In this document: piece by piece, positions 17,792 through 38,901 of the stretch
Numbering within the stretch: the stretch's first letter is position 1
Layout of the letters: each line of letters opens with the position of its first letter
Source: a bacterium
Lineage (GTDB): Bacteria > Patescibacteriota > Minisyncoccia > Phycocordibacterales > GCA-002787175
Reading direction: 5' to 3'
Assembly: GCA_030699905.1 (NCBI GenBank)
Contig: JAUYKQ010000018.1
Coordinates: 1 to 47,460 of the forward strand
DNA length: 47,460 bases
Translations under genes and position numbers: made by a program
Notes under the pieces: model-generated
What the model was told of the DNA's origin: nothing
Seen by the model: the letters and a program-made list of their open reading frames with translations, nothing else
Database searches by the model: none

Positions 17792-17848
17792 CATTTGCTG
17801 GATCCCGACGTCGCCGACGGGGCTCGTCTCTCGGGATGCTCAATCGGG

Positions 17849-18082
17849 CTTCGAGTCCCTGACGCAAGTGAAGCGGTTCACTTGCTACCGGCAGTTCTCC
17901 ACTGTCGTTACGAACTGCCGGTCAGGGACCGCGGGTACGCTTCTCGGTCCTTACAGGACCAGTACAGGTTTCCCGTTTTTTCGGCATAAGAATGCCTCAA
18001 AAACATGGGAGAACCTCTTCGAGTCCCTGACGCAAGTGAAGCGGTTCACTTGCTACCGGCAGTTCTCCACTGTCGTTACGAA
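17849..18082 (-). repeat. Structured tRNA-tail element following tRNA-Gln, with an 81-bp direct repeat
   Basis: Read on the minus strand after tRNA-Gln: ACCGGC complement (18055-18060), a 9-bp hairpin (18032-18053), the antisense of the tRNA T-arm (18018-18030), then two hairpins (17975-18004 and 17946-17960) and finally an exact 81-bp copy (17849-17929) of the tRNA-side segment 18017-18097. The same order of parts follows tRNA-Leu at 38738-38901. No protein is encoded. Confidence 0.8.
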
Positions 18083-18153
18083 CTGCCGGTCAGGGACTCG
18101 AACCCCAATACCCTCCTCCAAAGGGAGGTGTCCTACCATTAGACGAACCGGCA
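18083..18153 (-). tRNA. tRNA-Gln (TTG)
   Basis: Cloverleaf on the minus strand: acceptor TGCCGGT / ACCGGCA (U1-A72, the glutamine-type first pair), D-arm GTC...GAC, anticodon stem CCTCC/GGAGG with loop CTTTGGA giving anticodon TTG, T-loop TTCGAGT, discriminator G73 as expected for Gln. CCA is not encoded. Confidence 0.93.
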
Positions 18154-18239
18154 AAATTTGTTCCTAAATTTATAGTTAAAAAAGCGACGTCCGAGTACCA
18201 CTCACTCACAAAACCCTAATATACCCCCAATTTATATCA

Positions 18240-38655: not shown

Positions 38656-38737
38656 GCCGGGGTGGCGGAATTGGTAGACGCACACGACTCAAAATCGTGC
38701 GGGGTAACCCATGGGAGTTCGATTCTCCCCTCCGGCA
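38656..38737 (+). tRNA. tRNA-Leu (CAA)
   Basis: Acceptor GCCGGGG / CTCCGGC (one G-T pair), D-arm with GGTAGAC, anticodon stem CACGA/TCGTG with loop CTCAAAA giving anticodon CAA, a long variable arm typical of Leu, T-loop TTCGATT with GGGAG/CTCCC stem, discriminator A. CCA not encoded. Confidence 0.95.
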
Positions 38738-38901
38738 CACGATCAAAGCAAGTGGCCGGAGAGCCGCAAACTGCTTTGCGGCGTGGGAGAATTGAAGGGG
38801 TTCTCCGTTATGATTTGGAAATTCTGATTTCAAAATCATCGGAAACCCGTACTGGTCATGTAATGACCGATAAGCGTACTCGCGGTCTCCCCTCCGGCAC
38901 A
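38738..38901 (+). repeat. Structured tRNA-tail element following tRNA-Leu
   Basis: Contains the antisense of the tRNA-Leu 3' end in two pieces, GCCGGAG (38755-38761) and GGGAGAATTGAA (38785-38796), split by an 8-bp hairpin (38763-38782). A nested hairpin (38810-38839) and GGTCAT-GTA-ATGACC (38854-38868) follow, then a 16-bp direct repeat of the tRNA 3' end (38886-38901, copy of 38724-38739). Same order of parts as after tRNA-Gln. Confidence 0.8.

Follow-up and report, generated by a model that had tools for sequence, protein, structure and literature searches.

A family of hairpin repeats, probably kept as DNA, at tRNA and tmRNA 3′ ends in one order of Paceibacteria, with arms matching the host gene

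Repeat units behind tRNA-Leu and tRNA-Gln

The window, that is, the whole stretch of 47,460 nucleotides analyzed here, carries a tRNA-Leu(caa) gene that is followed on its 3′ side by a structured non-coding element, which base-by-base reading of the sequence places at 38739-38901 (Table 1). The unit is built in the order tail (sense), spacer, antisense of the acceptor strand, hairpin, antisense of the T-arm, the long hairpin P2, GTACT, the short hairpin P3, the optional hairpin P4, and tail (sense) again, with constant segments alternating with host-customized ones along its length. All the parts that the original prediction named at this locus, among them the 16-bp direct repeat, were found. 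The T-arm antisense has one mismatch to its host, reading AATTGAA instead of AATCGAA. The copy predicted behind tRNA-Gln(ttg), at about 17800-18081 on the minus strand, follows the same plan and is arranged in tandem: its second, truncated unit repeats the first from the spacer to S1′, and then begins a P2 of another type (GCCCGATTGAGCAT). The element is absent from the tRNA-Trp gene in the window.

Table 1. Features of the tRNA-Leu and tRNA-Gln loci in the window, and positions of a second structured block found at other loci.
Feature	Position	Strand	Source or remark
tRNA-Leu(caa), host	38656..38738	+	ARAGORN, Rfam RF00005
Stretch of the tRNA-Leu host that is copied	T-loop (38718) to 3′ end		
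16-bp direct repeat TCTCCCCTCCGGCACA, copy 1 (tRNA tail)	38724..38739	+	sequence
Spacer	38740..38752	+	sequence; terminator-like hairpin in many other copies
S2′, antisense of acceptor 3′ strand	38753..38761	+	imperfect in the Leu copy
Inserted hairpin HP, GCCGCAAA-CTGC-TTTGCGGC	38763..38782	+	between S2′ and S1′; plan repeated in other copies
S1′, antisense of T-stem 3′ strand and T-loop	38785..38796	+	
P2, long hairpin, GGGGTTCTCC...GGAAACCC	38797..38848	+	inner part exchangeable
GTACT	38849..38853	+	invariant across the 22 model sequences
P3, 6-bp stem with GTA loop	38854..38868	+	loop constant, stem covaries
GATAA, small hairpin P4 (38874-38883) and GG	38869..38885	+	inside the T-loop copy; missing from some copies
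16-bp direct repeat TCTCCCCTCCGGCACA, copy 2 (tRNA tail)	38886..38901	+	sequence
tRNA-Gln(ttg), second host	18082..18154	-	ARAGORN, Rfam
Gln unit 1: spacer, S2′, HP, S1′, P2, GTACT, P3, P4, tail copy	17911..18081	-	model match 17925-17971
Gln unit 2, tandem, truncated	17800..17910	-	sequence
Second structured block	L083:1042		
Second structured block	L150:1407		
Second structured block	L205:480		
Second structured block	L219:692	-	
Second structured block	L249		
Second structured block	L291		behind tRNA-Asp, this genome

Spread of the repeat and its tie to tRNA and tmRNA genes

A first search with a pattern derived from the core returned eight copies in this genome. Applied loosely to the contigs of other genomes, the pattern gave mostly chance matches. 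Matches were retained only if P3 was complementary, and real copies were recognized among them in Nomura-, Taylor-, Yonath- and Kaiserbacteria. With a covariance model of the 47-nt core, built from 22 aligned sequences, 13 strong matches were obtained in this 0.8-Mb genome, as against one or two in each of its sister genomes. Matches were obtained in eight of 286 genomes sampled across the class, every one of them in the same order and none in any other order, and in 68 of the 397 genomes of that order, the weakest being close to the threshold. A lack of further copies, which would have refuted the original prediction, is thus contradicted both in this genome and across the order, and 100 copies were examined. 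The model took GTAC:GTAC as a helix; the second GTAC was subsequently rejected as a helix strand, as variants suggest that it is instead the loop of P4, with stems such as GCG/CGC, ATG/CAT and GTG/CAC. The model overlooks copies devoid of P4; several tRNA genes of this genome, among them tRNA-Glu(ctc) and tRNA-Lys(ctt), are nonetheless followed by the same plan. Including a core-less Val copy and copies at contig ends, about 13 of the 35 tRNA genes on the examined contigs of this genome carry the element.

Fifty-six of the 96 copies that have enough upstream sequence to be assessed start less than 200 nt from the 3′ end of a tRNA or tmRNA gene on the same strand, with 80-195 nt separating the end of the gene from the core. 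The hosts comprise tRNAs for Glu, Gln, Ser, Arg, Pro, Trp, Leu, Lys, Tyr, Cys, His and Asn as well as tmRNA. Many of the remaining copies are second tandem units or stand behind intron-containing tRNAs missed by ARAGORN. There are also orphan copies without a tRNA body, some of which keep only the last few acceptor bases. Overall, these copies constitute a chromosomal, non-coding, interspersed family of hairpins tied to tRNA and tmRNA 3′ ends in one order of Paceibacteria. A survey of the open-access literature found no comparable tRNA-linked repeats in CPR bacteria.

Several further features were observed around these genes. At four loci (L163, L164, L214 and L215), tRNA genes uncalled by ARAGORN are seemingly split by a group-I-like intron (GATGATATAGTCC...), and the element is present. 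Among 133 tRNA and tmRNA genes, CCA is encoded by 6 of 64 element hosts and by 18 of 69 other tRNAs of the same loci (Fisher p 0.014). A second structured block, consisting of GGGGTCGCGAGCACTTA, a hairpin and CTTAGTGACTCGTGACC, occurs behind tRNAs, often beside the first element and in some cases with a tail copy of its own after it, and is possibly a second core type of the same architecture. Another hairpin repeat, GAGGCAGGGCGAA...TTCGCCCTGCCGAGTCC, has a REP-like look and is found near orphan copies (L060, L062, L099 and L163).

Host-specific arms and the nature of the structure

The two antisense arms follow the sequence of the gene that they stand behind. Across 55 hosts, the fit of the T-arm antisense to its own host is 10.58 of 12 and that of the acceptor antisense 5.87 of 7, compared to 8.59 ± 0.14 and 4.22 ± 0.15, respectively, when the hosts are re-paired, and none of 1000 shuffles reaches the observed arm fit. 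Likewise, the best downstream antisense match is 11-12 of 12 for hosts and 7-9, in one case 10, for tRNAs of the same genome that are not hosts. A generic T-loop sequence does not account for the arm, because it carries the matching variant in all ten hosts with unusual T-loops (TTCAA, TCCGA), some of these loci being related. Several of the ten, for example a tRNA-Ser beside tRNA-Glu loci, had no recognized core, and the arms may therefore be spread more widely than the core. For the CCA-less hosts, the three bases beside the arm fit the genomic trailer perfectly in 34 of 54 cases, and the antisense of an added CCA (TGG) is found there in none of the 54, which argues that the template is the gene or its unprocessed transcript and not the mature tRNA. 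The original description of a structured repeat customized to the 3′ end of its own tRNA is thus supported in 55-64 hosts from many genomes. Since both arms mirror the end of their own host gene, something appears to copy the host gene into the repeat.

Terminator-like spacers stand before the element in many copies and are lacking in some. This look lends itself to the idea that we are dealing with ordinary tRNA terminators, secondary palindromes and chance similarity, but the invariant core motifs and the terminator-less copies speak against it, and the host-specific arms, together with the re-pairing and non-host controls, refute it, leaving it with practically no likelihood.

In 93 of 94 copies the loop of P3 reads GTA, and 28 different stems are found around it. 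In the core alignment, 33 both-side changes were counted in P3 and 99.5% of the cells over the two helices are paired; P3 hence covaries strongly, where a lack of compensatory changes would have spoken against the original prediction. RNA helices are expected to tolerate G-U pairs, but not A-C. Counted with an automatic helix finder, in copies that are related and not independent, the mismatches in the element helices amount to 57 G·T and 36 A·C, a mild sense-strand excess (p 0.04), whereas the tRNA stems from the same loci have 47 and 1 (Fisher p 4e-7 versus the element helices). The numbers for P3 alone are 10 and 3. Both strands fold better than shuffled sequences, and it is the minus strand that has the lower z-score. 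Because the mismatches are nearly strand-symmetric, unlike those of tRNA stems, DNA-level hairpins are favored over RNA. The mild excess of G·T over A·C nevertheless leaves room for a degree of selection on the sense strand at the RNA level, and a weaker role for RNA is possible, especially for P3. Searches against Rfam at the gathering and relaxed thresholds gave no match apart from the tRNA itself.

These observations lend no support to two functions that had been envisaged for the element, namely pairing of its RNA with the tRNA tail and production of a tRNA-like RNA. The non-Watson-Crick pairs lack the strand bias of tRNA (near symmetry as opposed to 47:1), the antisense strand folds at least equally well, many copies have terminator-like spacers upstream, and the acceptor half of the tail copy is often lost. 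A more elaborate alternative is a cis-acting structured RNA, in which the antisense arm would pair with either the tRNA tail or the downstream tail copy and thereby act as a switch for tRNA folding or 3′ processing, the arms being maintained by selection. Both alternative pairings are indeed available in most copies, and such a switch would also agree with the covariation of P3, the mild G·T excess on the sense strand, the more frequent retention of the stem-needed part of the downstream copy than of its acceptor part, and the scarcity of CCA-encoding hosts, as though 3′ processing counted. However, it sits poorly with the near symmetry of the mismatches compared to tRNA stems, with the upstream terminator-like spacers and with the patchy presence of the element (one or two matches in sister genomes against 13), and point mutation and selection would hardly yield HP and P2 blocks that are common to different tRNAs with swapped arms. 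We therefore regard the RNA switch as unlikely, though it deserves to be taken seriously.

Duplicated tails, possible movement and related systems

The insert is flanked by a direct repeat of the tRNA tail, which measures 16 bp behind tRNA-Leu and 27 bp behind tRNA-Lys(ctt), where it extends from GTTCGA to six bases beyond the gene. The repeat is not full length in every copy: the downstream tail ranges from 5-6 bases up to the full tail, the acceptor half often being lost and the stem-forming part being retained more often. Where P4 is lacking, the T-loop copy is formed by the 3′ side of the P3 stem and the GA after it; where P4 is present, it sits within the T-loop copy. The units are also mosaic. 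In this genome, the copies behind Ser and Arg tRNAs are nearly base-for-base alike in HP and P2 and differ in their arms and P3, and in two species of the genus the Pro copies share their arms but differ in the inner part of P2. Tandem arrays with identical or near-identical units were found. Within one genus, tRNA-Glu loci hold different elements or a terminator only, in a comparison of empty sites that is between species and not strains, and in which contigs often break at elements; for the tRNA-Leu locus, the flanks did not align with those of two sister species. Movement at tRNA ends, as had been anticipated, thus has indirect support from the duplicated tails, the tandem arrays, the turnover of loci and the presence or absence of the element, but neither a dedicated integrase nor a larger island was found.

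The reading that we favor, with a probability of about 0.5, is that of a DNA hairpin repeat locked to tRNA tails, which duplicates the tail as it inserts and takes the template for its arms from the host gene, fold-back replication being the probable route. Joining of the conserved hairpin block into GTTCGA, the universal T-loop sequence, together with duplication of the tail, would give a new unit. The antisense arms would be written by the replication machinery as it folds back and switches template on the tRNA gene, and the same switching would later keep them perfect; with arms written and kept in this manner, the structure would live as DNA hairpins. Template switching is an established source of mutations and is able both to create and to repair perfect stems in a single step (PMC8794818). 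The invariance of GTACT and of the GTA loop, both outside the stems, suggests recognition by a factor, for which a purely replicative origin offers no account. Also counting against the favored reading are the mild G·T excess, the orphan copies without a tRNA body and the indirect nature of the evidence of movement. Somewhat more tentatively, the element may represent a new type of mobile DNA, a hairpin that writes the reverse complement of the end of its target gene into its own arms at each site and is re-customized for every tRNA or tmRNA.

Direct repeats at tRNA and tmRNA 3′ ends are the classic pattern of attachment sites, and the units could accordingly be remnants of integrative elements, or non-autonomous ones, that use the tRNA tails as attachment sites for a tyrosine recombinase, with P3 and P4 as recombinase sites. 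The start of the repeat at the T-loop and the tandem arrays would fit such an origin. It is made improbable, however, by the use of many different tRNAs within one genome, by the fact that attachment sites do not contain their target rewritten in antisense, and by the presence in this genome of a single tyrosine recombinase, the number expected for a resident Xer. The element itself encodes no gene, and hence no integrase, and no conserved gene was found upstream of it. A viral, phage or plasmid origin was rejected, since the searches made of phage, plasmid and viral collections returned no match to the element, a result that also speaks against the attachment-site origin.

Transposition through single-strand (HUH/Y1, REP-type) or reverse-transcriptase machinery was also considered. 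The substrates of Y1 transposases are hairpins with conserved loops and short flanking motifs, which the element resembles, and its arms recall retroviral primer-binding sites, which are templated from the tRNA and complement its 3′ end as far as the T-loop. Y1 (PF01797) is present in 249 of the 397 genomes of the order, and RVT_1 (PF00078) in four of ten carrier genomes tested, but neither has a match in this genome, which is the richest in copies and has an estimated completeness of 98.9%; both were therefore rejected as mobilizers. In addition, the arms are templated from the gene and its trailer and never from a CCA-tailed tRNA, and the 22 aligned cores have no GTAG or CGTC tag beside the palindrome, the conserved flank being GTACT. 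Such machinery is thus a very improbable source of the repeat.

In kind, the family is close to small interspersed hairpin repeats. As in REP/BIME and bacterial MITEs, the units are small, non-coding, interspersed, hairpin-forming, mosaic and present in many copies per genome, but they are locked to tRNA/tmRNA 3′ ends and have their arms rewritten for each host gene, and they differ from REP/RAYT systems in having neither the GTAG/CGTC tag nor a Y1 gene in their genome. Mitochondrial double-hairpin and repetitive hairpin-forming elements are likewise presumed mobile hairpin pairs with no known enzyme; they occur in other genomes, are not tied to tRNA tails and are not known to have host-templated arms (PMC10085805, PMC2800124). 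Integrative elements at tRNA 3′ ends, including casposons, share the target and its direct repeat, but the element described here is far smaller, is gene-less and contains an antisense copy of the target (PMC4046053). Quasipalindrome template-switch mutations resemble it in producing reverse-complement copies and in repairing stems in one step without G-U intermediates (PMC8794818). The host-written arms and the strong tRNA/tmRNA tropism set the family apart from all systems known to us. To our knowledge, template switching has not been described as giving rise to a repeat family that recurs at defined genes with a conserved sequence.

If the favored reading is correct, bacteria harbor a repeat family with arms written from the neighboring gene, and thereby a natural, genome-wide record of template switching. 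It would also allow a clean check on the assumption that covarying stems always imply RNA, as strong covariation is here accompanied by near strand symmetry. The element may affect tRNA 3′ ends in a minimal-genome lineage of tiny uncultured bacteria, and it breaks assemblies at tRNA genes and gives rise to spurious small ORFs in annotations. On the minus strand of the Leu element (38739-38901) and of other copies there is one open frame, which yields GDREYAYRNLQFQYT-like peptides; small annotated proteins of the GDREYAYRNLQFQYT type in these bacteria are probably spurious. Finally, the hairpin tips in the spacers and P4 of many copies often read GCGAAGC (for example at C23:12637 of this genome, L197 and L202), a sequence known to form a very stable DNA mini-hairpin, and the GTA loop of P3 belongs to the same GNA type.
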